From the NCBI RefSeq assembly GCF_041361345.1, contig NZ_JBGKAD010000002.1:1-64000 (forward strand): DNA of 64,000 nucleotides, written 5' to 3'. The notes under the pieces were generated by a model. That model was not told the DNA's origin. It worked only from the letters and a program-made list of their open reading frames with translations, and ran no database searches. The translations under genes and the position numbers were made by a program. The DNA is from Halobaculum sp. MBLA0147. Its GTDB lineage: Archaea > Halobacteriota > Halobacteria > Halobacteriales > Haloferacaceae. Positions 32,926 to 48,611 of the stretch are shown here, piece by piece. The first letter of the stretch is position 1; every line of letters starts with the position of its first letter.

Positions 32926-33366
32926 ATGGTTCGACGGAGTGGCAGTACGTCGGAGACGGACGGTGGGGGGTCGACGCTCGACGCGCGTCTCGACGAGACG
33001 TTCGCGTCGCTGGCACACCCGCGCAGACGGCACCTGCTGGCGGAACTCCCCGAGTCACCCGCGGAGTCGCTGTCACTCGCGACGGCTGCCCGACGACTGC
33101 GCTGTCGCGAGGTGGGTGATCTCGGGCGGAGCTACGTCGGGCGCGCGGCTGCCACGGGGCCGACCGAGTCGTCGGATCGCCCGGACACGTACGTCTCGCT
33201 GCGACACGTCCACGTCCCGAAGCTGGCGGACGCGAACTTGGTCGATTACGACACCGCCGCGGACGCGGTGGCACGGACCGAACTGACAGACGCGGCGCTG
33301 TCGCTGGTCACGCGTGCCGAACGGGCGTTGGTCGATCGCGCGGGGCCAGTCGCCGGCGGGGAGTGA
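32926..33366 (+). CDS. DUF7344-type winged-helix regulator, soluble
   Basis: A 146-residue protein related to the DUF7344 genes upstream but without membrane helices: DETFASLAHPRRRHLLAELP, then DTYVSLRHVHVPKLADANLV and DYDTAADAV. The AT-rich region just before (CCAAAATACTC, ~32887) gives a promoter ~30-40 bases upstream of the ATG. It is divergent from the preceding regulator across a 147-base promoter region. Confidence 0.75.
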   Translation: MVRRSGSTSETDGGGSTLDARLDETFASLAHPRRRHLLAELPESPAESLSLATAARRLRCREVGDLGRSYVGRAAATGPTESSDRPDTYVSLRHVHVPKLADANLVDYDTAADAVARTELTDAALSLVTRAERALVDRAGPVAGGE

Positions 33367-33426
33367 CTCGTCGTCGGCTCCCCACTGGGGTGTCTCGGCT
33401 GGCCCGACGATACCCCGCTACGCCGT

Positions 33427-34224
33427 CTAGCCACCGGGGTCGCGATCCGGGAGCAGTCCCTGAGCCATCAGCCGGCGTGTGGCGACGACGAGTCCGTTGC
33501 GGAACCCACTCCCGAAGACGGCCTGCTCGTCGCCCGTCTCCAGGTCGACCGTGCTGACGAGGATACTCTCGCGGTCGATCAGTAACAGTCGCCCGACCGT
33601 CACGTCGTCGCCGTCGGCTCCACGCAACCAGTCCAGTCCAGAGACGAACGTCGTCGCACGCGGAACGGCTTCCGTCACACTGTCCGTCAACGTCTCGTCG
33701 ACACTCCCGACGACGACTTCTACGTCCGGCGGGAGTTCGGCCAGCGTCTCGGCCAACTCGTCGGTCCAGGCGCGGGTGTGGCCCAGCACCAGGACGACCT
33801 CCTCGTCGGCGTTCGCGACCGTCTCACGCGTGCGGTTTGCGACGGCGTCCGCGCCGTTCATCGCCCACACCTCCTGGACGGGTTCGGACGCGTCCGTCTC
33901 GGCTTGCTCGACGCTGTCGAGTGCGTCGGCGAGCCGCTCGACCCGCCGTTCGTACTGGCCTCTGAGGGTGTCGATCGCCTCGGACAACGGCACCGCACGG
34001 AACCGCTTCGGGTTGGAGTGTTGTACCTCGACCAACCCCTGTGCCTCGAGGACACGCACCGCATCGTAGACCCGTGTCCGTGGTACGTCGGTGATCTCGC
34101 CCAACCGTTTGGCCGTCCCGGTCGACAGCCGGGTGAGTCCGACGAAACACTTCGCCTCGTACTCTCGTAGTCCGAGCTGTTGGAGTATCTCTGCTGCCTC
34201 TGTCTCCGCGTCGTCTCTACTCAT
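33427..34224 (-). CDS. TrmB-family transcriptional regulator
   Basis: A 265-residue regulator: AEILQQLGLREYEAKCFVGL, then ITDVPRTRVYDAVRVLEAQG and VEVQHSNPKRFRAVPLSEAI, followed by a coiled-coil segment and a C-terminal sensor-like domain (VVLVLGHTRAWTDELAETLA, then DVTVGRLLLIDRESILVSTV). The C-terminal TrmB sugar-binding type is not clearly present; it is closer to haloarchaeal TrmB-like proteins with a DUF7437/PLD-like sensor. The ATG overlaps the end of a small upstream frame by 8 bases. Confidence 0.85.
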   Translation of the reverse strand: MSRDDAETEAAEILQQLGLREYEAKCFVGLTRLSTGTAKRLGEITDVPRTRVYDAVRVLEAQGLVEVQHSNPKRFRAVPLSEAIDTLRGQYERRVERLADALDSVEQAETDASEPVQEVWAMNGADAVANRTRETVANADEEVVLVLGHTRAWTDELAETLAELPPDVEVVVGSVDETLTDSVTEAVPRATTFVSGLDWLRGADGDDVTVGRLLLIDRESILVSTVDLETGDEQAVFGSGFRNGLVVATRRLMAQGLLPDRDPGG

Positions 34225-34420
34225 TGTCCCAACCACGGCCTGGAGGAATCCAGGTCTCTGTACCTTCGACGCGGAGGTGGAAATAGCCGTCGTCACCTGC
34301 TGGGACCGTCCGCGAGCCACCGTCCCGTCCGCCGGGACTCGCGAGGAGGACCCCCGACAGTCGACCTACTGTTGTCACGACTCGGATCAAGACGACGACG
34401 AGTGTGGGCGGAATCGACAC
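34217..34420 (-). CDS. Possible 67-residue membrane-anchored protein upstream of TrmB
   Basis: A GTG at 34420 opens a frame MSIPPTLVVVLIRVVTTVGR, continuing to LSGVLLASPGG, with one hydrophobic segment and then an acidic tail (TVPAGDDGYFHLRVEGTETW). It ends in a TAG 8 bases inside the TrmB gene, an arrangement suited to translational coupling. No family recognised. The AT-rich stretch near 34500 could be a promoter. The call rests on composition and gene arrangement only. Confidence 0.35.
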   Translation of the reverse strand: MSIPPTLVVVLIRVVTTVGRLSGVLLASPGGRDGGSRTVPAGDDGYFHLRVEGTETWIPPGRGWDNE

Positions 34421-34741
34421 GCTTCGAGCCGGAAGACCGTCTCGGAGACCCGCTGTAGTCGTCTCTCGACACGGTAGTGAGTCGAGTTCACTCGATTGAT
34501 CACAAAATCGTTTTACCGCGGCGACTGCTAGCGAACTACTGGCACGTGTTCGGACTCGTGTCCCAACCACGGCCTCGCACGTGCCGACCGGCCCTCCCGT
34601 GGCCGGTTCGCGAGAGGAGGAGAGTCGGAGTGGGTGTCGACACACAGTTCCACAGCGACAGCCCAGTCTGGCGGCCAGGCACAGACACGTCACTCGCCGA
34701 CTCACAACAGACTCTTGTCGCTGGCTACCGTCGTGACCGGT
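34421..34741. other. Gene-free stretch with a repeated 16-mer
   Basis: No convincing gene. The 16-mer GTCCCAACCACGGCCT at 34560-34575 repeats exactly one at 34226-34241 immediately before the TrmB start. An AT-rich run ACAAAATCGTTTTA (34502-34515) looks promoter-like for either direction. Confidence 0.45.
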
Positions 34742-35029
34742 GTGAGACACGACTCGTCGGACGAGGGTGAGTCGGTCCGTGTCGAGTACGACTGGACGGC
34801 CGTCGCGCCGTCGTCGGCCGTCGTCGAGACGGTCGCGGAGGCCGTCGGCCAGGAGCCGGAGACGCTCCCGACGCTCCACGACGCGGTCGATCCGGACGGA
34901 CTGGACGGGTTGATCCGTTCCGGTGACCCCGACCTCGACGGTCCGTCGGTGACGCTCTGGTACGCCGACACGCTCGTGACCGTCCACAGTGACGGCGCCG
35001 TCGTAGTCCGCGACGTCGACCGCCCGTGA
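34742..35029 (+). CDS. HalOD1-domain protein
   Basis: A 95-residue protein from a GTG (an in-frame GTG at 34733 is equally possible) with the HalOD1 pattern: VRVEYDWTAVAPSSAVVETV, then ETLPTLHDAVDPDGLDGLIR and SVTLWYADTLVTVHSDGAVV. Similar in size and layout to the one at 30624. A longer ATG start at 34634 would add a low-complexity Ser/Thr/His stretch and is less likely. Confidence 0.78.
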   Translation: MRHDSSDEGESVRVEYDWTAVAPSSAVVETVAEAVGQEPETLPTLHDAVDPDGLDGLIRSGDPDLDGPSVTLWYADTLVTVHSDGAVVVRDVDRP

Positions 35030-35554: not shown

Positions 35555-36712
35555 TTACTCCGGTGTCGTCTCCGTCGCCGTCGCTTCCGGCTCCAGCCCG
35601 CCGCCGTCGTTGTGGCGACACTGTTCCGTGTAGAACCCGAGATCGAACGTCACGGAGTCCGTCTGGACCTCGTTGGCGTGGTCCACCGGTAGCCACCAGG
35701 CGAACGCGACGTGGCGCGTCGTCGAGTTCGGGTAACAGTCCCGCGGCTCGGAGCGGCTGTCGGCGTCCAGCGGGATCCCGTTCCCGCTCGACAGCTCCGC
35801 CAAGACCTCGCGGAGCGTCCCGCTCGTGATCCGCGCCTCCTCGGCGGTGAGTGTGACGTTCGAGGGCTGGTCGACGGCGTGTGGCGAGGAGACGACCTCC
35901 TCGGCCTCCAAGACGTTGTCTCCGTCGTCGTGCCACACTGCGGCTCGCACCTCGTCCAACAGTTCGACGACGCCGTCCGCCTCGTCGGGGTCGTCGGCCT
36001 CCGGCTCCGTCACGCCGTTCTCGCTGGCGTCGACGAGCCCGCCGGTCAACCAGAGGTAGCCGGGGGTGTCGAACAGGTGGAGACTGAACGTCACCTCCCC
36101 GAAGTCGCCCGGTTTCACGTCGTCGAGTGCGATTACGGGAGCCTCGAGATCGTCGGGCACCTGCGCGAACTGGTCGCGGTAGGCGGCCTCGATCTCCTCG
36201 GGGTCGAACCCGGGGTTCGCCGTCGCGATCTGGTCGCGCGACAGGATCGGATCCTGTCGTCCGTCGCCGTCCGCGTCCGGGTACGCCTCCGTCGCGGTGT
36301 TGGCCTGGAAGTCGTCGAGCGACTCCGCCGGCACGGCGACGAGTGGCTCCGTCGGTGTCGGGATACCGACGTACCCCGACGGGATCGCCGCCGGGTCACC
36401 GTCGGTCGTGACCACGTCGAAGTCGTCGACGCCGTCGCCGTCCGTGTCGGTGTCGTTCTCGTCCGGGTCGCCGTCGAACACGCCCTCGGACACCCGGTCG
36501 TCGTTCTCGTCGACGGACCAGTCCGAGTAGTGTTCGGCCCAGTCCACCATGAGGTCCAGTTCTCCCGCCACCAGTCTGTTGCCGGTGACCTCCTCCGAGT
36601 CGGAGAAGTACGCGCTGGTCCCGACACCCGCACCGGCGGCGGCGGCGCCGACACCTCCGACCGCGGCGAGTACGTGTCGCCGGGACAGCTCCAGTCGTCG
36701 ATCTCGTGTCAT
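35555..36712 (-). CDS. SipW-dependent TasA/camelysin-like secreted protein 1
   Basis: A 385-residue exported protein. Its N-terminus ELSRRHVLAAVGGVGAAAAG, then GVGTSAYFSD, is the SipW-dependent type signal (twin Arg, then AYFSD at the mature start). It shares with the next genes VKPGDFGEVTFSLHLFDTPG, SENGVTEPEADDPDE and the C-terminal signature WWLPVDHANEVQTDSVTFDL, then GFYTEQCRHND. It carries an acidic Asp-rich segment (DTDTDGDGVDDFD) that may bind calcium. TasA-like proteins form extracellular fibres by strand exchange; here fibre or surface-layer association is inferred. It is the last gene of the one-strand cluster. Confidence 0.85.
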   Translation of the reverse strand: MTRDRRLELSRRHVLAAVGGVGAAAAGAGVGTSAYFSDSEEVTGNRLVAGELDLMVDWAEHYSDWSVDENDDRVSEGVFDGDPDENDTDTDGDGVDDFDVVTTDGDPAAIPSGYVGIPTPTEPLVAVPAESLDDFQANTATEAYPDADGDGRQDPILSRDQIATANPGFDPEEIEAAYRDQFAQVPDDLEAPVIALDDVKPGDFGEVTFSLHLFDTPGYLWLTGGLVDASENGVTEPEADDPDEADGVVELLDEVRAAVWHDDGDNVLEAEEVVSSPHAVDQPSNVTLTAEEARITSGTLREVLAELSSGNGIPLDADSRSEPRDCYPNSTTRHVAFAWWLPVDHANEVQTDSVTFDLGFYTEQCRHNDGGGLEPEATATETTPE

Positions 36713-36761
36713 GTGTCTCGTCCTCCTGTGTGCCGCGCCGGCCCCGCCGCCGACACGGTGA

Positions 36762-36829
36762 GACCCACCGACGGAGTCGAACCGCCGCCCGCGTCGCCGG
36801 TCTCCCGGCGGCGAGACGCCCGTGTGGGT
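36762..36829 (-). ncRNA. tRNA-like hairpin in the leader of TasA-like gene 1
   Basis: On the minus strand an outer stem ACCCAC/GTGGGT (36824-36829 with 36763-36768) encloses a 5-bp hairpin (GTCTC/GAGAC, 36813-36817 with 36800-36804). It is stacked on a 6-bp arm with the 7-base loop TTCGACT (36769-36787). That arm and loop match a tRNA T-arm, and the outer stem its acceptor. There is no D-arm or anticodon arm, so it is not a tRNA. It ends 49 bases before the ATG. A shorter version precedes gene 2. Confidence 0.55.
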
Positions 36830-36874
36830 GGCTCCGTCGCGGGCGACCCTCCCGGGTCGCGTCGAACCCACCGC

Positions 36875-38416
36875 CTACAGGTAGATCACGCCGGAGCCGT
36901 CGGTCGTGTTGTCGACGTCCTCTCGCCCGTCCTGGTTGCTCGGGCTCGGGTTCGAGGCGACGCCCTCGCCGCCGTCACCCGCGAACACCTCGTTCACGAT
37001 CAGGGCGCCCGGCGTCCCGACGTTCGACCCGGTCGCGCTCAGGTCGCTCGTCCAGTCGAGTTCGAAGGTGTACGAGAGCTGGTCACCCGACTCCGTCGTC
37101 GAGAACCCCGGCAGGTCCTCCTCTGCGACGACGACGAAGGTCCCGTCCGGCTGGCGGCGCTTGACGTACCCGCCGGCCGTCGACTGGCCCGCCTGGGTGC
37201 GCTCGCTGTTCGTCGCGCCGCCGTAGCCGATCCGGAAGTCGTCGGTGAACCCGTTCGAGTCGGCCGCGGCCAACCCGTCGAAGTCGTGGTTGAGGACCGC
37301 CTCGACGACGTAGCTGTTCGGGTTGTTCGGCCACTCGCCGGCCACGTCGCCGTACACTGCGCCGTCGAACTCCACTTCGATCGTCGTCGTCGGGCCGGCG
37401 CCGACGGAGGCGGTGATCCACTCGTCCGTCTCTCGGACGCCGCCGGTCGCGTCGCTGGTCAGGACGACCCGGTCCGGTGCCTGGCCGCTGCCGTCGTTGT
37501 GTCGACACTGCTCGGTGTAGAACCCCAGCCTGAACGTCGCCGAGTCGGTCTGGATCTGGTTCGCGTGGTCGACCGGCAGCCACCAGAGCACGCTCACCTG
37601 GCCGACCGTCGACCCGGCGAAACACTCCCGTCCGGTCGCCTCGTCGGCGACGCCGGTCGGCGACAGCGGGATCCCCTTGTCGGAGGACGTGTCGGCGAGG
37701 AACTCGCGGAGACTCTGCTGGTTCGTCGGCTGGAACCCGGACTGGGTGTCCTCGAACACCGTCGAGTCCTGGATCCCGCCGACGCCGACGGCCACCTGGA
37801 TCTCGTCGAGGAGTTCGACGACACCCGCCTCCTCGTCGGGGTCGTCGGCCTCCGGCTCCGTCACGCCGTTCTCGCTGGCGTCCTCCAAGATCCCGTTCAG
37901 CCAGAGGTAGCCGGGGTTGTCACACAGCTCGAACGCGAACTGTGCGCCGCCGAAGTCGCCCGGCTTCACGTCGTCGATCTCGAGGATCGCAGCGCCGTCC
38001 GCGTCACTCTCCGTGCCGCAGAGTTCTCCGTCGACCGGGACACCGCCGTTGATGTCGTCGCCCGTCCGGAGCGTCTCGACGAACTGCTCGTAGACGTTCT
38101 CCGTCTCGTCGTCGAGGTCGAGTGCGATGTCTCTCGCGTCGGGGCTCCCCTCGGGTGCCGGTAGACGGACGTCGGTCGACTCCGCAGAGGAGGCCATCCC
38201 GGCGAACTCCGCCTCGTCCTCCGACCAGTCGGAGTAGTACTCCGAGGCCGCCACCTGCATGTCCAGCGAACCGGCCGTGAGTTGGTTGCCCGTGAACTCC
38301 TCCGTGTCGGAGAAGTACGCGCTGGTCCCCAGGCCGGCCCCTGCCGATGCCACGCCGATCGTGCCGAGCCCGGCGAGCACACGCCGCCGGGACAGTTCGA
38401 GTCGTCTCTCTGTCAT
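36875..38416 (-). CDS. SipW-dependent TasA/camelysin-like secreted protein 2 with extra C-terminal domain
   Basis: A 513-residue paralogue. The signal is ELSRRRVLAGLGTIGVASAG, then GLGTSAYFSDTEEF. Common core motifs are DDVKPGDFGGAQFAFELCDN, SENGVTEPEADDPDEE, WWLPVDHANQIQTDSATF and GFYTEQCRHNDGSG (ending near residue 311). It is unique in a further ~200 residues (312-513), rich in beta strands (TTTIEVEFDGAVYGDVAGEW, then LSYTFELDWTSDLSATGSN), ending in an Asn/Asp-rich tail. The extra domain might be adhesive. The leader carries the tRNA-like hairpin at 38439-38479. Confidence 0.85.
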   Translation of the reverse strand: MTERRLELSRRRVLAGLGTIGVASAGAGLGTSAYFSDTEEFTGNQLTAGSLDMQVAASEYYSDWSEDEAEFAGMASSAESTDVRLPAPEGSPDARDIALDLDDETENVYEQFVETLRTGDDINGGVPVDGELCGTESDADGAAILEIDDVKPGDFGGAQFAFELCDNPGYLWLNGILEDASENGVTEPEADDPDEEAGVVELLDEIQVAVGVGGIQDSTVFEDTQSGFQPTNQQSLREFLADTSSDKGIPLSPTGVADEATGRECFAGSTVGQVSVLWWLPVDHANQIQTDSATFRLGFYTEQCRHNDGSGQAPDRVVLTSDATGGVRETDEWITASVGAGPTTTIEVEFDGAVYGDVAGEWPNNPNSYVVEAVLNHDFDGLAAADSNGFTDDFRIGYGGATNSERTQAGQSTAGGYVKRRQPDGTFVVVAEEDLPGFSTTESGDQLSYTFELDWTSDLSATGSNVGTPGALIVNEVFAGDGGEGVASNPSPSNQDGREDVDNTTDGSGVIYL

Positions 38417-38424
38417 GGTAGTCG

Positions 38425-38438
38425 TCCCCTCTCGGGGA
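38425..38438 (-). promoter_or_regulatory. GNRA-capped hairpin before TasA-like gene 2
   Basis: On the minus strand TCCCC-GAGA-GGGGA forms a 5-bp stem closed by a GAGA (GNRA) tetraloop. It ends 8 bases before the ATG at 38416 and directly follows the tRNA-like element. It could limit ribosome access or protect the processed 5' end. Confidence 0.5.
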
Positions 38439-38479
38439 GACCCACCGGCGGAGTCGAACCGCCGTACACCGTGTGGGTC
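38439..38479 (-). ncRNA. tRNA-acceptor/T-arm-like minihelix in the leader of TasA-like gene 2
   Basis: On the minus strand GACCCAC (38473-38479) pairs perfectly with GTGGGTC (38439-38445), seven base pairs as in a tRNA acceptor. The latter is immediately adjacent to a perfect 6-bp stem CGGCGG/CCGCCG with loop TTCGACT (38446-38464), as in a T-arm. Only 8 bases replace the D- and anticodon arms. The same T-arm-like sequence precedes gene 1 with one compensating wobble pair. Confidence 0.6.
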
Positions 38480-38507
38480 GACCGCACCGCTCGCGCCGCC
38501 GCTCGTG

Positions 38508-40493
38508 TCAGGTCGTGAACGTGTCCGTGTCGTCCTCGCTGCTGTCGTCGTCGGGCTCGAAGACGAACCCGACAGTCTGGGTGCCGAGCCCGGTCGGGAC
38601 GCCGCTCAGCTCGACCCTCGCCGGGAAGTCGGTCGACAGCGAGACGTTCCCGCCGATGCTCCGGAGCTCGACGGTCTGCCCGCCGTTCGACGTACTTCGG
38701 CCGAACGACAGCGACTGACCGTCGATGGACAGGTTCTCGACGACGACGCCAGAGGCGTCGAAGTCGGCGTTCAGGTCCAGCGACTCCAGCGAGTTGCCCG
38801 CGTCGTCGCTGCTGGGGAACCCCTCGACGGTGACGGTCGTCGTCTCCTCGCCGCCGTCGGGGGTCGCGGTCTCCTCCGGTGCCATCCCGCTGCCGTCGTT
38901 GTGGCGGCACTGCTCGGTGTAGAACCCGAGATCGAACGTCGCGGAGTCCGTCTGGATCTCGTTGGCGTGGTTCACCGGCAGCCACCACCCGAACCCGACA
39001 CAGTGGCGCTCGTTCGGGTCGAAACACTGCCGTGCCGCCGCCTCGCGGTCGCCGTCCAACGGCAGCCCCACGTCCGACTCGATCGTGGTCAGGACCTCCC
39101 GCAGCGTCCCGTCGAAGACGAGTTCCTCGCTGCCGCCGCCGGCGATCTGGCTCACGACGTTGGCCGCCGCGGCCGACATCTCGGCGCGCACGTCGTCGTC
39201 CCCGCCGGGCGAGCCGACGCCACCGTCCTGGTAGACGAAGAACGTCTCCGAGGCGTCCGTCGCCACGTCCCGCCAGAAGTCGGCGTCCGCGCCGGTCGGG
39301 TCCACGTCCAGCGCGATCACCTTCACCGTCACGCCCTCGACGTCCTTCAGGTTCGCCGCGGAGTCGCGGATGCTCTGTCGCTCGGAGGAGTCCGGCGACG
39401 GATTGTTGGTGATCAGGACGGCGTACCGCTCGTCGTGTGTACAGTCCGCGAGGGAGTTCGCCGCCAGGTCCAGCGCGTCGTCGACGTTCGTCCCGCCGGC
39501 CGGGGTGTTCGTCAACGCCTGGTCCAACCCGTCGAGGACGGCCTGCTCGTCGTCCGTCAGCGGGGTCTGGATCGTGTCGACGTCGGCGAAGGAGTTCACC
39601 GCGAACCGGAAGTTGTCGAGACTGCCCGGCGGCCCGGAGCCGAGCACGCCGTCGTCGTTCCCGTCGAGCGCGTCGACGGTGGTGACGATTTCCCGGCCGA
39701 TCTGGTTGGCGGCCTCCGCCTTCGTGATCGTCGGGTCGCCGTTCGCGTACACCGGGTCCTCCATCGAGCCGGAGGTGTCGACGACCAGGTCCACACAGGC
39801 CGGCTCCGGCGCGAGCTGTGCCACGTTGTCACAGTTCTCGTCGTACCAGACCCGCGTGCGGACCGCGTCGAGGAGTTCGACGACACCCTCCTCCTCGTCG
39901 GGGTCCTCGGCCTCCGGCTCCGTCACCCCGTTCTCGCTGGCGGACTCCAGCGCCCCTTGGAACCAGACGTACCCGGGGTTGTCACACAGCGCGAAGTCGA
40001 ACGTCACCTCGCCGAAGTCGCCGGGCTTCACGTCCCCGAGGTCGATCTTCGCGGCCGGGTCGTCGTTCGCGTCGTCCGCCGACCCGCAGGGATCCTCGGG
40101 GTCGAGCCGGATCGGTTCGCCGTCCTCGGGGTCGTTGTTCAGCGTGTTGTCCTGGAAGGTGGAGACGTTGCCGTCACTCACCCACACCGGTCCGACGTCG
40201 TCGCCGAGGATCCCGGTCGTGTTGCCGAGGTCGTCTGGCTGCTCCATCGAGACATCGCTCTCGTCGATTCCCTCCGTCTCGTCGGGCGACCAGTCGGAGT
40301 AGTGCTCCTCGTAGGACACCTTCATGTCTAGGGAGCCGGCGGCGAGCGAGTTGCCCGTGAACGCCTCCGTGTCGGAGAAGTACGCGCTGGTGCCGAGTCC
40401 CGCGCCGGCAGAGGCGACCCCGATCGAGCCGAGGCCAGCCAGCACCCGGCGGCGGGAGAGTGCGAGTCGTCCGTTCCGTCCGTCGTCTGTCAT
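38508..40493 (-). CDS. TasA-like secreted protein 3 with nested von Willebrand A domain
   Basis: A 661-residue protein. The signal is ALSRRRVLAGLGSIGVASAG with GTSAYFSDTEAF at ~35-46. The TasA-like core (DVKPGDFGEVTFDFALCDNP at 154-173, SENGVTEPEAEDPDEE near 186-201) is interrupted at ~residue 225 by a vWA domain (~233-455). The MIDAS DTSGS is at 239-243 and the conserved Thr at 335 (GGTNV), but the third MIDAS site reads LITNN (360-364), lacking the usual Asp. The core resumes with TLREVL (463) and ends LGFYTEQCRHNDGSG (522-536). A ~125-residue beta-rich tail follows. Likely a metal-dependent adhesion or protein-binding surface component. Confidence 0.85.
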   Translation of the reverse strand: MTDDGRNGRLALSRRRVLAGLGSIGVASAGAGLGTSAYFSDTEAFTGNSLAAGSLDMKVSYEEHYSDWSPDETEGIDESDVSMEQPDDLGNTTGILGDDVGPVWVSDGNVSTFQDNTLNNDPEDGEPIRLDPEDPCGSADDANDDPAAKIDLGDVKPGDFGEVTFDFALCDNPGYVWFQGALESASENGVTEPEAEDPDEEEGVVELLDAVRTRVWYDENCDNVAQLAPEPACVDLVVDTSGSMEDPVYANGDPTITKAEAANQIGREIVTTVDALDGNDDGVLGSGPPGSLDNFRFAVNSFADVDTIQTPLTDDEQAVLDGLDQALTNTPAGGTNVDDALDLAANSLADCTHDERYAVLITNNPSPDSSERQSIRDSAANLKDVEGVTVKVIALDVDPTGADADFWRDVATDASETFFVYQDGGVGSPGGDDDVRAEMSAAAANVVSQIAGGGSEELVFDGTLREVLTTIESDVGLPLDGDREAAARQCFDPNERHCVGFGWWLPVNHANEIQTDSATFDLGFYTEQCRHNDGSGMAPEETATPDGGEETTTVTVEGFPSSDDAGNSLESLDLNADFDASGVVVENLSIDGQSLSFGRSTSNGGQTVELRSIGGNVSLSTDFPARVELSGVPTGLGTQTVGFVFEPDDDSSEDDTDTFTT

Positions 40494-40723
40494 GGTGTGT
40501 CTCCTGTGGTCCGTTGTGGTGTCGCGGGCGCGGTGACGCACAGCCACCGCACCCGACGACGGGTGTCGGTCGGTCGTCCTGTGCTCCGATCGCGGTCGCC
40601 GGTCCCGCCGTCTGCGGTTCGATCGTCCGCGTCTCTGTCGTCCGTGTCCGCCTCGCCGGTGTCCGGTCCGTCCGTGTCGGTGGCGTCCGGAGCCAGTCCG
40701 TCACCGCCGTCGCGTGGCCGTCG

Positions 40724-42403
40724 CTACGACGGTGTCGTGGCCGCAGTCTCCTCCGGCTCCATCCCGCTGCCGTCGTTGTGCCGACACTGCTCGGTGTAGA
40801 ACCCGAGGTCGAACCCGACGGAGTCGGTCTGGACCTCGTTGGCGTGGTCAACCGGCAGGTACCAGGCGAACCCGACGTAGTGGGTGATCTCCGGCAGGTA
40901 ACACTCGCGGCCCTCGGCGTCGGCACCGTCCGCGAACTCGTCGAACGCCGTCGCGCGGTTGCCGTCCAGCGGGATGCCGTTGCCGCTGGAGAGAGCACCC
41001 AGCGCCTCCCGCAGCGACCCGCGGAAGATCACCTTCTCGCCGAGGATCACCTGCGAGAGGTTGGCGATCACCGCCGTCAGGTCGGTGGTGAACTCCGCGT
41101 GCACGTCGTCGGCCGGTCGTGCGAAGTCCAACAGCGCCGCCTCGCTCGACCCGCCGGTACCGATGGCGAAGATCTCGTCCGTGTAGTCGTCCGAGTCGCC
41201 GCCGGTCACGTCGTCGGCCGCGTCGCCGGGATCGGTGCCGGCGTTGTTGCCCCCGTCCGTGACGACGACCTGGATCCCGCGCTCGTCGGCGTCACAGTTC
41301 TGGAGGTCCTCGTCGCCGGTCTCGATCCCCTCGCCGATGGCCGTCGAGCCACCGTTTGCCGGCAGACTCTCGATGGTCGACTCCACCGTCGCCAAGTCCG
41401 ACGATCCGGGGTCGGCCAGCGAGAGCTGGTTCTGTGCGCCGCTGTCGTACCCGGACGCGCTGAAGAACGTCACACCGACGCGGCCGCCGGCGCCGACGAT
41501 CTCCGCCGCCAACTGCTTGGCGCCGTCGATCGCCTCCTGGTTCCGGGAGACGCCGTCACCGTCCGTGTTGCTCATCGACCCGGACGCGTCGAGCACGAAC
41601 TCGACACACGGTGTCTCGCCGGCACCCTGGTCGATGACGTTGTCGCCGTCGTCTTCGTACCACCAGGTCGTCTGGATCTCGTCGAGGAGTTCGACGACAC
41701 CCTCCTCCTCGTCGGGGTCGTCGGCTTCCGGCTCCGTCACGCCGTTCTCCCCGGTGAGTTCCTCGTCGAGTTCGCCCTGCAGCCAGACGTACCCCGGGTT
41801 GTCACAGAGGTGGAACGACAGCGTCGCCTCGCCGAAGTCACCGGGCTTCACGTCGTCGATGGCGACCAGTGGCTTCGCCGTCTCCGTCTCCTGGTCGTAC
41901 GTGTCCGCGTTCAGCGTGCGGAGTGCGCCGTCCGCCGTCGGGTCGAGGTCGTCGGGTGTGTCCGCGCCGTCCTCACACACCACGTACTCCTCGGGAGCAT
42001 TCTGGACGCCGTCGTCGTCCGGGTCCGGGTACGCCTCCACGGACGTGTTGTCCATGAACGTCGCGAGATCCGACTGTGCGACGTAGATCAGCGGGTTCTC
42101 CGGGTCCGGAAGTCCGACGTAGGGAACGTCCGGGTCCCCGTCGCCCGGCGGGTCCATCAGCACGGGGAACTCCAACCCCTCCGCCTCGTCGTCCGACCAG
42201 TCCGAGTAGTGCTCCTCCCAGTCGACTTTGAGGTCGAGCGAACCGGCCGTCAGCGAGTTGCCGGTGAACTCCTCGGTGTCGGAGAAGTACGCGCTGGTGC
42301 CGAGTCCCGCGCCGGCCGACGCGGCCCCGATGGTGCCGAGTCCGGCCAGCACGTTCCGTCGTGAGAGTGCGATCCGTCCGTCCGTCTGTGTGTCGTCTGT
42401 CAT
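40724..42403 (-). CDS. TasA-like secreted protein 4 with nested von Willebrand A domain, intact MIDAS
   Basis: A 559-residue protein. The signal is ALSRRNVLAGLGTIGAASAG and GTSAYFSDTEEF. The core motif DDVKPGDFGEATLSFHLCDN (183-202) is followed by ENGVTEPEADDPDEEE. A vWA domain is nested at ~266-455: MIDAS DASGS 272-276, Thr354 in GGSTAI, Asp383 in VVTDGGNN, all present. The TasA-like core continues at SLREALGALSSGNGIPLDG (463-481) and ends GFYTEQCRHNDGSG. It has a calcium-like DPDDDGVQN segment. It differs from protein 3 in lacking the long C-terminal tail. A 34-base gap separates it from protein 5 upstream. Confidence 0.86.
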   Translation of the reverse strand: MTDDTQTDGRIALSRRNVLAGLGTIGAASAGAGLGTSAYFSDTEEFTGNSLTAGSLDLKVDWEEHYSDWSDDEAEGLEFPVLMDPPGDGDPDVPYVGLPDPENPLIYVAQSDLATFMDNTSVEAYPDPDDDGVQNAPEEYVVCEDGADTPDDLDPTADGALRTLNADTYDQETETAKPLVAIDDVKPGDFGEATLSFHLCDNPGYVWLQGELDEELTGENGVTEPEADDPDEEEGVVELLDEIQTTWWYEDDGDNVIDQGAGETPCVEFVLDASGSMSNTDGDGVSRNQEAIDGAKQLAAEIVGAGGRVGVTFFSASGYDSGAQNQLSLADPGSSDLATVESTIESLPANGGSTAIGEGIETGDEDLQNCDADERGIQVVVTDGGNNAGTDPGDAADDVTGGDSDDYTDEIFAIGTGGSSEAALLDFARPADDVHAEFTTDLTAVIANLSQVILGEKVIFRGSLREALGALSSGNGIPLDGNRATAFDEFADGADAEGRECYLPEITHYVGFAWYLPVDHANEVQTDSVGFDLGFYTEQCRHNDGSGMEPEETAATTPS

Positions 42404-42437
42404 CGTTCTGATATTTCGTGTGTCTCGCGTGCGGTAC

Positions 42438-42893
42438 TCACCGTGGTGTCGGCGTCGTGGTCGCGGTCTCCCCGGACGGGCGTCCGTTCCCGTGGTCGTG
42501 GCGACACTGCTCGGTGTACGGCCCGAGACCGGAGGCGACCGAGTCGGGCTGGGTCCCGTCGGCGCGGTCCACCGGCAGGTACCACCCGACGCCGACGGCG
42601 TGGACGCTCGGTGCGGCCGAGTAGCAGTCGCGGTCGCTCCCATTCGCGTCCGAGGTGGGGCCGTTCCCCGGGACGGGAACGCCGTTCGTCTCGTCGACGG
42701 ACCGGTCCGAGTAGTGTTCCGCGTACGACACCTCCGGGTCCGACTCGCCCGCGACGAGCCGGGTCCCGCGGACCGTCTCCGCGTCGGCGAAGTACGCGCT
42801 GGTCTCGACACCTGCACCGGCCGGCGTGGTGCCGACGGTACCGGTGGCGGCCAGTGCTCGCCGTCTCGACAGCTCGTACCGTTGGTCCGTCAT
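42438..42893 (-). CDS. TasA-like secreted protein 5, shortened paralogue
   Basis: A 151-residue paralogue that keeps only the ends of the family. The signal (YELSRRRALAATGTVGTTPA, then ETSAYFADAETVRGTRLVAG) is fused to the C-terminal signature VGWYLPVDRADGTQPDSVAS, then GPYTEQCRHDHGNG. The whole middle (VKPGDFG and SENGVTEPEADDPDE motifs) is absent, and several invariant residues are changed (AYFAD for AYFSD, EVSYAEHYSDRS). It is open and probably expressed, but may be decaying. It could serve as a minor or capping subunit. Confidence 0.7.
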   Translation of the reverse strand: MTDQRYELSRRRALAATGTVGTTPAGAGVETSAYFADAETVRGTRLVAGESDPEVSYAEHYSDRSVDETNGVPVPGNGPTSDANGSDRDCYSAAPSVHAVGVGWYLPVDRADGTQPDSVASGLGPYTEQCRHDHGNGRPSGETATTTPTPR

Positions 42894-43408
42894 CGTCTGG
42901 GTATCCCCGCCCGGTCCGTCCCGGTGCAGGGTGTCCGTCCCTTCCGCCGACGGGGTATTTGCTACCCGCCGGATTACCGCAGATAACGAGTCCGTCGCCC
43001 GCGAGAACGGCCGATTAGGTCGTTCGCTCGACACCGACGCCGACCTTGGCCACTCCCGAACCGTGTGTTACCACCGGGCAAACCCGCTCTTCGGTGGTGT
43101 CACACGCTCGTGGCGGTGGGGCGATCGCCGCCGGCGCGGTGGCGTCTCTCGTCGGTGCAGGTCGATCGGTCGGCCGGGGGGATCGTCGGTCGGTGTAGGT
43201 CGACCGGTCGGCCGGGGGATCGTCGGTCGGTGCAGGTCGACCGGTCGGTCAGGGGATCGTCGGCCGGCCGGGGCCGTCGATCGGGCGAGAGATCGTCGGG
43301 CACGAGAGACAGTCGTCACCCTCGTCGCTCGTCGTGCGGGTTCGGGAGACGGTGAGCGCGTGAGTCGGAGAACGTAACTGCGTCGAGAGGCTCGACCACT
43401 GACGCTCG
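42894..43408. other. Intergenic stretch with a repeat array
   Basis: 515 bases without a gene between the stalk-protein and TasA-5 genes. The TasA-5 side holds an AT-rich GTATTTGCTACC (42955-42966), likely its promoter. The remainder holds the 37-bp repeat array at 43154-43299. Confidence 0.5.
43154..43299. repeat. Tandem 37/38-bp repeats
   Basis: Three good units at 43154-43191 (38 bp), 43192-43228 and 43229-43265, each starting GGTG(C/T)AGGTCGA(T/C)CGGTCGG and ending GGGGATCGTCGG(T/C)C, followed by a decayed fourth at 43266-43299. The GGTCGACC and GATC parts are palindromic. Non-coding, just upstream of TasA-like gene 5. Confidence 0.88.
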
Positions 43409-44362
43409 TCACTCGTCGACGGCGCGGGCGGCGAGGTCGGACTCCCTCGCGAGCGGTGGTCCGACCCCCGAACCGGTGGACTCACTGGACGGCGTCTTCG
43501 TGGGTCCGTCGGACGGATCGGGTGTGGCCGTCGCCGTCTTGGTGGGTTCGGGTGTCTCGGCAGGTGTTCCCCCCGGCGTCGCCGTCTCGGTCGGGGCCGG
43601 AGTCTCGGTCGAGGTCTCGTCTGGCGTCGTCTCGGTGGAGGCTGGTGTGTCGGTCGGCGTCGCCGTCTCGCTCGGCTCCGGTGTGTCGGTCGGGGTCTCG
43701 GACCGCTCTGGTGTGTCCGTGTCCGTCGGTGTCGCCGGCGGCGTGTCGGTCGGCGTGGGGCTCCCGGCCGGTGCCGGAGTCCGAGTCGCTGTCTCGGTCG
43801 GCGTCGGGCCCGCCGTCTCGGTCGGTGTCGGACTCTCGGTGGGAACCGGCGTCTGGTCCGGCTCTGGAGTCCGAGTCGACGCCGGTTCCGGTGTCTCGGT
43901 CGGTGTCGCCTCCGGTGTGTCGGGTGTGGCGGTCGCCGTCCCGGGTGTCGCCGTCGGCGTGTCGGTCCCGTTCGCCGTCGGCGACGTAGCCGTCTCGACT
44001 GGTTCCGGTGTCGCGGTCTCCGTCACCGTGGCTGCGGGTGTCTCGGTCGGTGCCACCGTCGCGGTCGCACCCCGTGACGACGGCCCCACACCCTGCTCGT
44101 CACCGCGGCCGGGGTTCGACGGTGGACCCCGGCGACCGGTCTCCGTCGTGGTCTTCGTGGGAGTCGCCGTCGGCGCGTTCCCCGCGGTCGGTGTCGGTGT
44201 GTTCCCCGCCGTCGGTGTCGCCGTCGCCGCGGCGAACTCGACGCGAGTCACCTCTCCGTCGGTGAACGCGCCGACCGTGACGAACCCGCCCGTCGCCGAC
44301 GTGCCGAGGACGAGCACCGACAGCACCACCGCCACGAGCGGCCGGTCGTGCGTCTCACGCAT
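43409..44362 (-). CDS. Exported Thr/Pro-rich stalk protein
   Basis: A 317-residue protein. A hydrophobic N-terminal segment (PLVAVVLSVLVLGTSATGGF) is followed by VTVGAFTDGEVTRVEFAAAT, recalling the short strand after a TasA-type signal. About 220 residues of TPT, TPE and TET repeats follow (ETPTDTPEPSETATPTDTPA and similar), ending GPPLARESDLAARAVDE. Such regions are usually O-glycosylated and extended in haloarchaeal surface proteins. Its ATG overlaps the end of the signal peptidase gene by 8 bases, so it is co-translated with it. It could be the cell-wall-spanning anchor of the fibre system. The repetitive DNA makes length variation likely. Confidence 0.78.
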   Translation of the reverse strand: MRETHDRPLVAVVLSVLVLGTSATGGFVTVGAFTDGEVTRVEFAAATATPTAGNTPTPTAGNAPTATPTKTTTETGRRGPPSNPGRGDEQGVGPSSRGATATVAPTETPAATVTETATPEPVETATSPTANGTDTPTATPGTATATPDTPEATPTETPEPASTRTPEPDQTPVPTESPTPTETAGPTPTETATRTPAPAGSPTPTDTPPATPTDTDTPERSETPTDTPEPSETATPTDTPASTETTPDETSTETPAPTETATPGGTPAETPEPTKTATATPDPSDGPTKTPSSESTGSGVGPPLARESDLAARAVDE

Positions 44363-45755
44363 CGTCGTCCTCCCGTCGTCGGTCTGGCTCCGGACGTTCG
44401 GTGCGTTCCTCGTCCGCGAGGGGACCGTTCGGTCGGGCCCGTTCGACCGAGTCCGCTCGGCCGTTCTCTCGCCGGGCACCGGCCGTCGAGTCCGCGAGAT
44501 CGGCGTCCGTCGGCTCGTCGGTACTCGTCGGCGGCGACACGTCGGTCGCTCCCTGCTCGGTTGACCCGGTAGGCTCCGGCGGTCTGGTCGGCGCCTCGTA
44601 GAGGTAGAGCTGTGTGTCGACGACGACACCGTAACGGTCGGCCGAGAAGTCCGCCAACACCGGGTGCCCGACGCGGTCCGCCACGCCGACGAGGGTACTC
44701 AGCCGGTCGACCTGCGTCGTCGTCGCGACGTTCGGTGTCACCGTCGCGAGGTTCGTCGGGAGGAACAGTCGCTCGTCCGTCGACACCTCCTCTGCCGGCC
44801 CCAACGTGAGGTACACCACCCCGACGAACAGCGACCCGAGCACCCCCGCTGCGGCGGCGGCGACCGACCACGCCGTGATCCCGGTCTGTGACAGGACCCA
44901 CAGCGCGTACCCGGTGAACACGAGCGTCACCACTCCGCCGAGTCGCAGGTCCGACCGCGTGAGGACGATCCCCTCGGGCTCCGACTCGTCGTCCTCGACG
45001 AACGCCTCGACGACATCGTCGGCGTCCACGTCGAACGTCGGTCCGGCGGCCGCCCCGGACGCGGCGTCGTCGAGTCCGGCGCTGCCGTTCTCGCCGACCT
45101 CGACGCGTCCGCCGAGTCCACCACCGGCGTCGGGGTCACGCCCCCCGAGCCCGCCGCCCGCGACTGGATCACCGTCCGCCGGTAGCCCGCCACTCCGAGC
45201 ACCGTCTCCGCGTGAGTTGTCGCCGCGTGGACCCGCGCCCGCGGCGCCGCCGCTCTCGTCGTCGCGGCCCCGAACGAGGTCGTACAACTCGGTGACGACG
45301 AGCAGTCCGAACGGCACCGCGACGAGCAGCCCGAACCCGAGTGGCGTGTCCGCGAACTGGATCACGTAGCCGATCAGCGGGATCGTGATCGCCACGCGAC
45401 CCACGACGCTCTCGGCCGGCACCGGTTGGGGGTCGCGTTCCTCGTTGGCGTCCCCCTTCGTGACGAACGCCCGCCCGTCGTCCGAGTCGACCACCTCGAT
45501 CACGCGGTGTGTCGTCGGGACGCGCTCTCCCTGCCGTCGGAAGGTGATCACGTCGCCGGTCTCGACGGCTCCGGGCTCGACACCGTCGACGACGATCACG
45601 TCGCCCGTCGAGATGGCCGGCTCCATGCTCCCCGAGAGGACGACGTACCCCGCGTCCGCGCCGACCGCAGCCGGCCAGGCGTAGATCACGAACGGCACCA
45701 CCAGCGCCACCAGCAGGAGTGCCCCGACGACGTGGGCGGCCCCACGCGGCGTCAC
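44355..45755 (-). CDS. SipW-type signal peptidase I with extra C-terminal membrane domain
   Basis: A 466-residue membrane protein. The N-terminal helix ALLLVALVVPFVIYAWPAAV precedes the catalytic serine in SGSMEP (Ser43). The general base is His83 in THRVIEV, the ER/SipW type with Ser/His rather than Ser/Lys; GDANEERD (101-108) supplies the Asp. A second helix lies at ~140-157. Unusually, a ~110-residue Gly/Asp linker, a second domain with two helices (LGGVVTLVFTGYALWVLSQT and AAAAGVLGSLFVGVVYLTLG) and a globular part (LATVTPNVATTTQVDRLSTL) follow. It presumably processes the TasA-like precursors of this cluster. GTG 45755 is chosen over the longer start, whose extra residues are Arg/Gly-rich. 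Confidence 0.87.
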   Translation of the reverse strand: MTPRGAAHVVGALLLVALVVPFVIYAWPAAVGADAGYVVLSGSMEPAISTGDVIVVDGVEPGAVETGDVITFRRQGERVPTTHRVIEVVDSDDGRAFVTKGDANEERDPQPVPAESVVGRVAITIPLIGYVIQFADTPLGFGLLVAVPFGLLVVTELYDLVRGRDDESGGAAGAGPRGDNSRGDGARSGGLPADGDPVAGGGLGGRDPDAGGGLGGRVEVGENGSAGLDDAASGAAAGPTFDVDADDVVEAFVEDDESEPEGIVLTRSDLRLGGVVTLVFTGYALWVLSQTGITAWSVAAAAAGVLGSLFVGVVYLTLGPAEEVSTDERLFLPTNLATVTPNVATTTQVDRLSTLVGVADRVGHPVLADFSADRYGVVVDTQLYLYEAPTRPPEPTGSTEQGATDVSPPTSTDEPTDADLADSTAGARRENGRADSVERARPNGPLADEERTERPEPDRRREDDDA

Positions 45756-45903
45756 GGCTCCACCTCCCCGACAGCCGGCGGTCGCCGACGATCCGGTACG
45801 CCACGGGTCGTCGACGCCCGGCGCCACCGACTCGCGGTGGCCGACAGACCGCCCTCGCCCGTCACTCGCTGCCCCGGTCCGCCGTGGTGACTACGAAGCT
45901 CCG

Positions 45904-46905
45904 TTACCATGGGTTCCTCGGTGTGGTGTGTCTGCACTGTCTCGCGGAGAACTCGACCACGAGTTCCGCCGTCTCGCCGGTCACCGCGTCCGGTGCGTCC
46001 GTCGGTAACTCCCAGGTGAGTTCCAGACAGCCCGGCGGACACTCCAGACAGACGGCCGAGCCACAGAACTCGAAGACGGCGTTGCTCAACTCGAACCGGG
46101 TGTCGTTGTTCGGGTTCTCCGGCGGCTGGAGATCGGTCAGTCGCCGCCGACAGCCGGACGGATCGTACCTCACGGTCCGATCGACACCGGGGCCGCCGCC
46201 ACCCGTCACCGACACTGCGTCGAGTGTGCCGCCGTCGAGTACGACCGCGTCGACGGAGACGATCTCGTCGCCCTCCTTCGTCTGGACGTTCCGCAGCTCC
46301 ACGACGACCTCGCCGTCCGGCGTGTCGAAGGCGAACTGCGGCGGGTCCCGCGAGCGCACCTCGCCGTCGCTCCCGTCTTCGCTCTCGACGATGAACTGGC
46401 CGCTCTCGTACTCCACCGTCGCCGTCGCGGTCGTGTCGCGTCCGAGCAGGAGTCCGTCGGACAGCGCGTCGCTCAGTCCCGCGAGTGTCCCCTCGTACAG
46501 CACGCTCTCGGACGACCCGTCGCAGGGGACTCGCGAGACGAGTTCGACCCGCGTCGCCGTCGCGAGTGGGGAGTCGACGGCCCCGTGCGTGCGGAGCCAC
46601 ACGCGACCGGGGTTGTCACACGACCGGACGGCGATCGTCGCGCCGCCGGTGTCGCCACGACGTACGTCGTCGAACGGGACGGTGACCACCGTCTCGTCGG
46701 AGAACGTCGTCGGCGGTGCCGGCGGGCCGCCGTCCGCTCCGGTCGCCGCGACTTCCAGGTCGAGCGCCCCACTCTGGAGTGCGTTCCCCTCGACGACCGC
46801 CTCGTCGGAGAGTGCCGCGTACGTCCCCGCGCCCCCGACGAACCCCAGCGTACCGGCGACGGAGAGTGACCGCAACAGTCGTCGCCGGGAGTGATCGGAA
46901 CTCAT
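45904..46905 (-). CDS. Exported TasA-superfamily protein (distant), Cys-rich
   Basis: A 333-residue protein. The signal SRRRLLRSLSVAGTLGFVGG, then GTYAALSDEAVVEGNALQSG, is analogous to AYFSDTE. The core motif is VRRGDTGGATIAVRSCDNPG, then RVWLRTHGAV, homologous to KPGDFG..LCDNPGYVWL of the neighbours. It ends in a Cys cluster (FEFCGSAVCLECPPGCLELT) and VVEFSARQCRHTTP, matching the EQCRH signature. It is probably a minor fibre or surface subunit. A TAGCAAA-type element ~30 bases upstream (46931-46945) fits a leaderless promoter. Confidence 0.8.
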   Translation of the reverse strand: MSSDHSRRRLLRSLSVAGTLGFVGGAGTYAALSDEAVVEGNALQSGALDLEVAATGADGGPPAPPTTFSDETVVTVPFDDVRRGDTGGATIAVRSCDNPGRVWLRTHGAVDSPLATATRVELVSRVPCDGSSESVLYEGTLAGLSDALSDGLLLGRDTTATATVEYESGQFIVESEDGSDGEVRSRDPPQFAFDTPDGEVVVELRNVQTKEGDEIVSVDAVVLDGGTLDAVSVTGGGGPGVDRTVRYDPSGCRRRLTDLQPPENPNNDTRFELSNAVFEFCGSAVCLECPPGCLELTWELPTDAPDAVTGETAELVVEFSARQCRHTTPRNPW

Positions 46906-47045
46906 CGCACGTCTCTCCGGTCCCACGGTGGGGGGTTTGCTATGCGGCAGTTATCCCCGAGTTTCTCGTGTGCTAACGGGCGCTCGGCCCCGTCCCTATC
47001 GCCTCCCGGTCCGGAGTCACCCGCCGACGCGCGGTGCCGCACGCG

Positions 47046-47885
47046 TCAGCCAGCCCCGTCGCCGAACGGGTTCTCGCTCCCACACGGGACACCGGCGAAC
47101 ACCAGGTCGAACGTGACTCGGTCGGTCTGGACGCTGTCGCCGACGGTCTCGGGCAGTTCCCACGCGATCCCGACACAGCGCCGGTCCCCGGGCGCCAGAC
47201 AGTCGACGAGTCGTCGTCCGTCCGCGAGCGCGGCCGCACTCCCCGCGAGTGTGTCGTCGACGAACGGGGACTCGTCGACACCCAGCGTCCCGTCACAGCT
47301 ACCGAGGAGGCCGTCGTCGAGCCAGAACGTCGTCTGCACCGCCTCGCCGAGCTCGCCGCCCGGACCCTCGCCGGGGGCGTTCGCCTCCGGTTCGATCACG
47401 CCGTTCTCCGACTGTGCGATGTCGGCGCGGAGCCATACCGCCACGCCCTCGGTGGTCTCTCCCGCCGTACCGCCACTCTCGGCGCCACTCCCCCCGGCGT
47501 CGTCACCCGTGGCATTCTGCAGTCCGACGAGCAGTCGGCCGGTGTCCCCGGGGACGACGTCGTGAAACGCGATCACCGGGCCGTTCGCCTCCGCCACGTA
47601 CTGTGGGTCGGCGGCGGGGTCGAGCGTCCGGCTCGCGTTCGGAGCGGCGCCGTTCCTACCCGCAGTACCGTTCTGTCGTTCCTGGACGGTGCCCCGGTAG
47701 GACTCGTACCAGGCGACGCGGAGTCGACCGTCGTCGGTGTCGCCGTCCGGGGTGGCCGCGTAACTGTACCGTGTGAACGGCGGTGTGCGGTCGCGTCCGA
47801 GTGCGCCGGCACCCGCCGTCACGACGCCCGCGGCGCCCAACGCCGCGAGCACGCCTCGTCGTGTCGTCGTTCTGTCGGGGTCCAT
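47046..47885 (-). CDS. Exported TasA-superfamily protein (distant)
   Basis: A 279-residue protein with a signal TTRRGVLAALGAAGVVTAGA. It retains FHDVVPGDTGRLLVGLQNAT, SENGVIEPEANAPGEGPGGE and CVGIAWELPETVGDSVQTDR, then VTFDLVFAGVPCG, all corresponding to signatures of the five TasA-like proteins. Two Cys pairs (SCDG; DCLAPGDRRC) could form disulfides. It is the first gene of the minus-strand cluster, divergent from the DUF7344 regulator across a 165-base region that holds three GTTACCG repeats. Confidence 0.8.
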   Translation of the reverse strand: MDPDRTTTRRGVLAALGAAGVVTAGAGALGRDRTPPFTRYSYAATPDGDTDDGRLRVAWYESYRGTVQERQNGTAGRNGAAPNASRTLDPAADPQYVAEANGPVIAFHDVVPGDTGRLLVGLQNATGDDAGGSGAESGGTAGETTEGVAVWLRADIAQSENGVIEPEANAPGEGPGGELGEAVQTTFWLDDGLLGSCDGTLGVDESPFVDDTLAGSAAALADGRRLVDCLAPGDRRCVGIAWELPETVGDSVQTDRVTFDLVFAGVPCGSENPFGDGAG

Positions 47886-48050: not shown

Positions 48051-48611
48051 ATGGGAACGGGACAGGGGCTCTTCGGCCGCGGCACGGGCGACGAGACGCT
48101 CGCGGCGGCGGAGGCGTACGACGTGTTGCAGAACGACCGGCGGCGGCGCGTGTTGGAACGACTCGGCGAGGAGGTCGGCGGCGCCAGACTGGACGACCTA
48201 GCGGACGGTCTCGCCACGACGGAAGCCGACGAGTCGCCGCCACCGGACGGCCTCCGCGAGAGCGTCTACAACTCGCTCCACCAGACGCACCTCCCGAAGC
48301 TGGAGGGACTGGGGCTGGTGACCTACGACAGAGAGAGGAAGACGGTCTCGTTGCGGCCCCAGGCGCGACACCTCGCGCGGTACCGGCGTCCGGAGGGGCC
48401 GTTCGGGCTGTCGTGGGGCGAGTGGTACCGCGGCGTCGCACTCGTCGGGTTCTGGGCGTCGCTCGTCGTCCACCTCGACTGGCCCCCGTTCTCCGGGCTC
48501 AACCCGCTGGTGGTCACCTCGCTGGCGCTGGGGGTGTTGACGCTCTCCTTGCTGTACCAAGTGTGGACACGGCGGCGGCTCTACCTCCACCTGCTCGTCT
48601 ACGGGGAGTGA
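48051..48611 (+). CDS. DUF7344 winged-helix regulator with membrane anchor
   Basis: A 186-residue protein. The winged helix has AEAYDVLQNDRRRRVLERLG, then RESVYNSLHQTHLPKLEGLG and LVTYDRERKTVSLRPQ. It is followed by two helices (GVALVGFWASLVVHLDW and NPLVVTSLALGVLTLSLLYQ) that tether it to the membrane. It is divergent from the TasA-like cluster and a likely regulator of it, by position. It resembles the regulators at 29032 and 29870. It converges with the next gene with no spacer: stop codons occupy adjacent bases. Confidence 0.85.
   Translation: MGTGQGLFGRGTGDETLAAAEAYDVLQNDRRRRVLERLGEEVGGARLDDLADGLATTEADESPPPDGLRESVYNSLHQTHLPKLEGLGLVTYDRERKTVSLRPQARHLARYRRPEGPFGLSWGEWYRGVALVGFWASLVVHLDWPPFSGLNPLVVTSLALGVLTLSLLYQVWTRRRLYLHLLVYGE

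Follow-up and report, generated by a model that had tools for sequence, protein, structure and literature searches.

A TasA/camelysin-type gene cluster of haloarchaea, probably encoding a composite fiber, with tRNA-like elements between its later subunit genes

What do nine genes that combine paralogous TasA-like secreted proteins with a SipW-type signal peptidase encode, and what lies in the gaps between them? The genes occupy the minus strand from 47885 down to 35555 of the window (the whole stretch of DNA analyzed, 64,000 nucleotides), and all are present where the earlier note, which proposed a TasA-like surface fiber, had placed them. The window is part of a contig of 451 kb in a 4.3-Mb haloarchaeal genome; the contig is probably a secondary replicon. 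It also carries two more such clusters, unmentioned in that note, and each of the three clusters contains one of the four signal peptidase I matches in the genome. We consider it moderately probable that the locus encodes a haloarchaeal TasA/camelysin-type composite fiber in which tRNA-like elements separate the later subunit mRNAs.

The distal half of the run, in minus-strand order, holds the globular subunits. Gene g6 (40724..42403) encodes a subunit with a VWA domain (residues 269-443; Pfam VWA, E 4e-9) nested in a TasA-like domain, and g7 (38508..40493) combines a nested VWA domain (residues 236-421) with a C-terminal tail. A long C-terminal tail without VWA characterizes g8 (36875..38416), and g9 (35555..36712), a plain subunit with neither VWA nor long tail, is the proposed shaft subunit. 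All four carry AYFSD after the signal and LGFYTEQCRH near the C-terminus, a signature that had been ascribed to five paralogs. The fifth, g5 (42438..42893), reads AYFAD and LGPYTEQCRH instead; it lacks the central domain and, of 46 near-invariant positions, retains 25, compared to 44-45 in g6-g8, so that a decayed copy fits better than the "minimal" subunit previously suggested. Because g5 is decayed, a count of seven functional subunits is too high, and the working inventory is four intact subunits (two with VWA), the decayed g5, the relatives g1 and g2, and one SipW. Another short copy resembling g5 occurs in Salinigranum salinum (L014, 14577-15119), and decay of subunit copies may be recurrent.

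The subunits g6-g9 share a twin-arginine signal, a feature absent from the earlier note. Across the loci compared, Tat-like signal motifs are found in 167 of 172 subunits, in 45/45 g2-type and 37/44 g1-type proteins, but in only 5/49 of the starter proteins typified by g4 and 0/8 bacterial relatives. Close subunit relatives that have a SipW and lack Tat-type signals occur in Patescibacteria and related bacterial MAGs (L059, L061, L067 and L071). The position of the VWA domain within the sandwich could be mapped in 48 proteins, and a single site is preferred; at least one VWA subunit is present in 43 of 59 loci, and the VWA domains show the DxSxS motif in 56 of 59 cases. Donor and acceptor elements are both found in the VWA subunits, which therefore need not be fiber tips.

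Support for a relationship to TasA and for a free N-terminal segment comes from Pfam matches, AlphaFold models and fold searches. At E<=1e-3, 33 of 50 relatives match the Pfam camelysin family (PF12389); in the window, g8 scores above the gathering threshold and g6, g7 and g9 fall just under it. In Foldseek searches against the PDB, the cryo-EM structure of the TasA fiber (8aur) ranks first for both g9 and g1 (probability 1.00, E about 1.5e-4), which identifies a TasA-like β-sandwich in each. Large insertions keep the TM-scores to TasA low (0.25-0.39), and sequence profiles searched against the PDB never reached TasA. TasA fibers assemble when the N-terminal donor strand of one subunit inserts into the following subunit (PMC9674648). 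The corresponding AYFSD..N..AG segment has a conservation of 0.73, level with the best core motif (0.74) and higher than the first strand, yet it is unfolded in the monomer model of g9 (AlphaFold2, 46 sequences, mean pLDDT 78), the state expected of a free donor strand. Residues 1-43 and 45-47, with pLDDT below 50, contain the signal and most of this stretch; part of the stretch up to residue 47 is signal, for which an unfolded state is expected in any case. The model thus does not show the fold lacking a free donor strand that had been named as grounds for rejecting the fiber.

The remaining genes encode a signal peptidase and three further proteins. The product of g3 (44355..45827) is a signal peptidase I of SipW type that has a long extension at its C-terminus, with a weak DUF5305 end. 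It matches TIGR02228 above cut-off (E 2.8e-34); with the Bacillus-specific SipW model NF046067 the E value is 2.4e-30, but the score is below cut-off (105/190 bits). By the TIGR02228 match and the occurrence of one such gene per cluster, g3 belongs to SipW as an archaeal/ER-type signal peptidase linked to its substrates. Both this SipW and the Thr/Pro protein recognized earlier are indeed in the cluster. The latter, g4 (43409..44362), whose start overlaps the g3 stop, consists of a Sec-type signal, a donor-like GAFTDGE segment and a Thr/Pro-rich disordered tail, with no domain. It represents a conserved class: the gene next after SipW, read at 49 loci and lying within 60 nt at 45 of them, encodes a protein in which a Sec-type signal is followed by a donor-like segment and then by a tail of low complexity, without a fold. 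These SipW-neighbor proteins score higher for the donor-like motif than other proteins with a hydrophobic N-terminus (p=1.8e-19), and 27/49 pass the 99% point of shuffles; the score of g4 itself is weak, and the TapA-like donor-strand N-terminus is a property of the class as a whole. The folded Ig-like domain of TapA is missing from the g4 class, which is of low complexity beyond the donor segment; the class thus resembles TapA at most in its role and does not belong to TapA itself. By this analogy, g4 is probably a donor-only starter, which fits its donor-like segment and lack of fold better than the stalk it had been taken for. Such a starter is credible since a B. subtilis strain secreting only TapA residues 44-57 forms proper biofilms (PMC10151520).

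The opposite composition is seen in g1 (47046..47885), which has a Tat-like signal and a TasA-like domain without the donor motif. In an alignment with 22 relatives the domain motifs are kept and the donor motif is replaced, and the AlphaFold model of g1 also matches the archaeal bundling pilin 7ueg (Foldseek probability 0.84). We propose that g1 probably caps or anchors the opposite end of the fiber. A more distant subunit, g2 (45904..46905), has a relaxed donor motif, AALSDE, and belongs to a class usually found beside SipW. Of the two distant relatives said to retain parts of the motifs, then, g2 does so (AALSDE..N..AG), whereas g1 retains the domain and not the donor motif.

This arrangement is widespread. 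The subunit family was found again in 61 loci, 57 of them haloarchaeal, and the SipW-type signal TIGR04088 scores above cut-off in 169/391 Halobacteria genomes (43%), a recurrence far beyond chance. The layout is repeated at 52 haloarchaeal SipW loci, with subunits at 52/52, a g1-type gene at 39/52, a g2-type gene at 43/52 and a mean of 2.9 paralogous subunits per SipW. Around the cluster in the window, a divergent neighbor (48051-48611, plus strand) encodes a DUF7344 protein with two hydrophobic stretches, and a DUF7344 protein again lies beside the second cluster (L009, 9447-10025, plus strand); this flanking protein is a candidate regulator. The other flank (32926-35029) contains a DUF7344 gene, a TrmB-type regulator (33427-34320, minus strand) and a HalOD1 gene. 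The second cluster also encodes a protein (L009, 3378-4376, minus strand) that has a membrane segment at its N-terminus, then a Thr/Pro and acidic stalk, and at its C-terminus a TasA-like end lacking the donor motif. It has no Pfam match and is possibly that cluster's membrane anchor.

From the family, fold, gene classes and synteny computed here, we infer polymerization, its polarity and the roles of g4 and g1. The globular subunits g6-g9 would be exported through the Tat pathway, probably folded, and the dedicated SipW would cut directly before A-[YF]-F-S-D, freeing an N-terminal donor strand to complete the sandwich of the next subunit. The first donor strand would probably come from g4, as it does from TapA, with g1, which has the fold and no donor motif, at the other end. 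VWA subunits would add binding domains along the fiber or at its end. A composite fiber with tip, shaft and anchor, as first envisaged, is plausible in these terms. The fold, camelysin signature, SipW-type signal and dedicated SipW are shared with the Bacillus TasA/TapA/SipW and CalY (camelysin) fibers, as are a putative N-terminal donor segment and a starter with a donor-like N-terminus in the TasA system. The haloarchaeal system differs in its Tat-type signals on the globular subunits (Sec in Bacillus), in the VWA domains nested in the sandwich, in a starter that, unlike TapA, has no folded domain, and in its separate fold-only class and several paralogous clusters. The archaeal bundling pili (AbpA) of Pyrobaculum calidifontis, the source of the 7ueg match, are likewise archaeal TasA-like donor-strand fibers, but no mention of VWA subunits, a donor-only starter or RNA elements in them was found in the open-access papers searched. 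Camelysins are already known from archaea (PMC10151520), and annotations routinely label proteins of this kind SipW-dependent or vWA; the papers searched agree with the earlier statement that no haloarchaeal system of this composition has been described.

Could these proteins instead be secreted or cell-bound adhesins that keep the TasA fold and SipW processing and do not polymerize, with VWA domains binding ligands as monomers? In favor are the DxSxS motif of nearly all VWA domains and the name of the Pfam family, which refers to a supposed protease, camelysin. Against it stand a donor segment that is better conserved than the first strand though unfolded in the g9 model, several paralogs per SipW, and the conservation of both donor-only and fold-only partners. 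The leader element described below, which subunit genes have in common with DUF1102-like pilin-type genes, also argues against it. We therefore judge non-polymerizing adhesins unlikely and retain the composite fiber as the preferred reading.

The gaps between subunit genes contain a second feature. About 45 nt before the ATG we noticed GGTTCGANTCC, the tRNA B-box, surrounded by a 6-bp T-stem and often by a 7-bp acceptor-like stem; a CCC/GGG hairpin then follows in 86/98 elements. The order is acceptor stem, T-arm and CCCC/GGGG hairpin, and the loop, TTCGANT, is the tRNA T-loop consensus. Twenty-seven short-linker copies (A6) share a single 13-pair structure, found independently by RNAalifold, in which six pairs have changed on both sides (0/500 shuffles); these copies were chosen for acceptor pairing, which inflates the acceptor-stem covariation. 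For this reason an unselected test was made on 98 elements: a perfect 7-bp partner occurs at short distance in 23, compared to 3.4 in shuffles, a weaker result than the selected one. The T-stem pairs covary without selection, and the elements fold only slightly better than shuffles. The acceptor stem and T-arm typical of t-elements are both present. Rfam found nothing at the elements. We regard ARAGORN tRNA calls on a few of them, with varied anticodons, as spurious, and we rejected a GNRA loop in the hairpin, which only 7/59 four-base loops fit.

Two elements, neither in the earlier note, lie in the window. The one before g8 (38417..38481, minus strand) has an acceptor-like stem (38479-38473/38445-38439), a T-arm and a CCCC-GAGA-GGGG hairpin; folded as a single sequence it takes up this structure too (z -1.6), it matches the covariance model R1 with E 2e-12 as a member of the training set, and the predicted tRNase Z cut falls at 38438/38437. 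A divergent element before g9 (36740..36829, minus strand, with the element at about 36829-36763) has a longer linker, an R1 E value of 0.0065 and a minimum-energy fold without the expected structure. In the window g6 and g7 have no such element.

Placement distinguishes the elements further. They precede 82/113 later subunit genes but only 8/56 first ones (p=3e-13). First genes have more AT-rich DNA in front of them than the elements do, which led us to reject a promoter. R1 matches 32/79 Halobacteria genomes at E<=1e-3, and among 81 matches with the downstream gene read, 45 precede cluster-type genes, 10 precede DUF1102-like genes and 4 are 5S rRNA leaders, the known Haloferax t-element kind. 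In Haloferax, tRNase Z processes this 5S t-element, and both RNase P and tRNase Z act on t-elements in general (PMC4326828). The 5S of L172 starts one base past the acceptor stem, at the expected tRNase Z cut, and the hairpin begins at the predicted cut site or one base before it in 47/91 elements. The cluster elements share the acceptor stem and T-arm of the Haloferax 5S t-element; they differ in sitting between protein genes and in being followed by a hairpin near the start codon. From structure and placement we infer that RNase P and tRNase Z probably cleave the elements within the subunit run. Later subunit mRNAs would then start at or beside the hairpin near the start codon, and subunit amounts could thereby differ.

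Other genes also carry the element. The N-termini of the DUF1102-like genes resemble that of the PDB entry 9p0a, "Pilin", and the signals of 9p0a and of haloarchaeal DUF1102 proteins are of RR type ending in GTGAF[TS]S, as here, although by sequence both represent a different family. The link between 9p0a and DUF1102 consists of this N-terminal resemblance and of Pfam hits in the other genes; 80 residues of 9p0a gave no DUF1102 match in Pfam. On the genome's 226-kb contig (L092, L093, L094) and in L095, the element precedes small unrelated genes at the same start-codon spacing, in some cases with a GGTGCAA(C/T)TCC loop variant. Its presence before unrelated genes on that contig indicates a general haloarchaeal device, heavily but not solely used here. 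Exact matches to the element pattern also occur in sixteen viral contigs (L096-L111). HF2-type intergenic repeats were rejected as the same thing, as those carry promoters (PMC8707807).

An alternative function for the element is that of an uncut structured leader controlling translation or mRNA stability. The GC-rich hairpin at a nearly constant distance from the ATG would suit such control, but a tRNA T-loop consensus, a hairpin that so often begins at the cut site and a model that also recovers 5S t-elements, with 5S starting exactly at the cut point, favor processing; we find an uncut leader rather unlikely. Recombination of DNA at the element, or its use as a tRNA-type attachment site for shuffling subunit genes, would suit the repeated paralogs, the copies on the 226-kb replicon and in viral contigs, and the role of tRNA ends as attP in haloviruses (PMC8707807). 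This is very improbable given the fixed sense orientation and ATG spacing, the compensatory changes in both stems and the elements before 5S rRNA and DUF1102-like genes. Returning to cleavage by tRNA-maturation enzymes, we regard as evenly balanced the broader proposal that haloarchaeal operons for surface filaments, both TasA-like and DUF1102-type, are punctuated by mRNA-borne tRNA-like elements, cut by these enzymes, with the hairpin left at or near the 5' end of later subunit mRNAs tuning subunit ratios.

If correct, these proposals would extend TasA-type fibers to a composite system across many haloarchaea, in which naturally occurring donor-only and fold-only parts make the start and stop of assembly testable, and protein-coding operons would gain a tRNA-like punctuation. 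Because Haloferax volcanii has SipW-type signals, as seen in the TIGR04088 survey, and t-element processing has been worked out in Haloferax, both claims could be tested in a genetic model.
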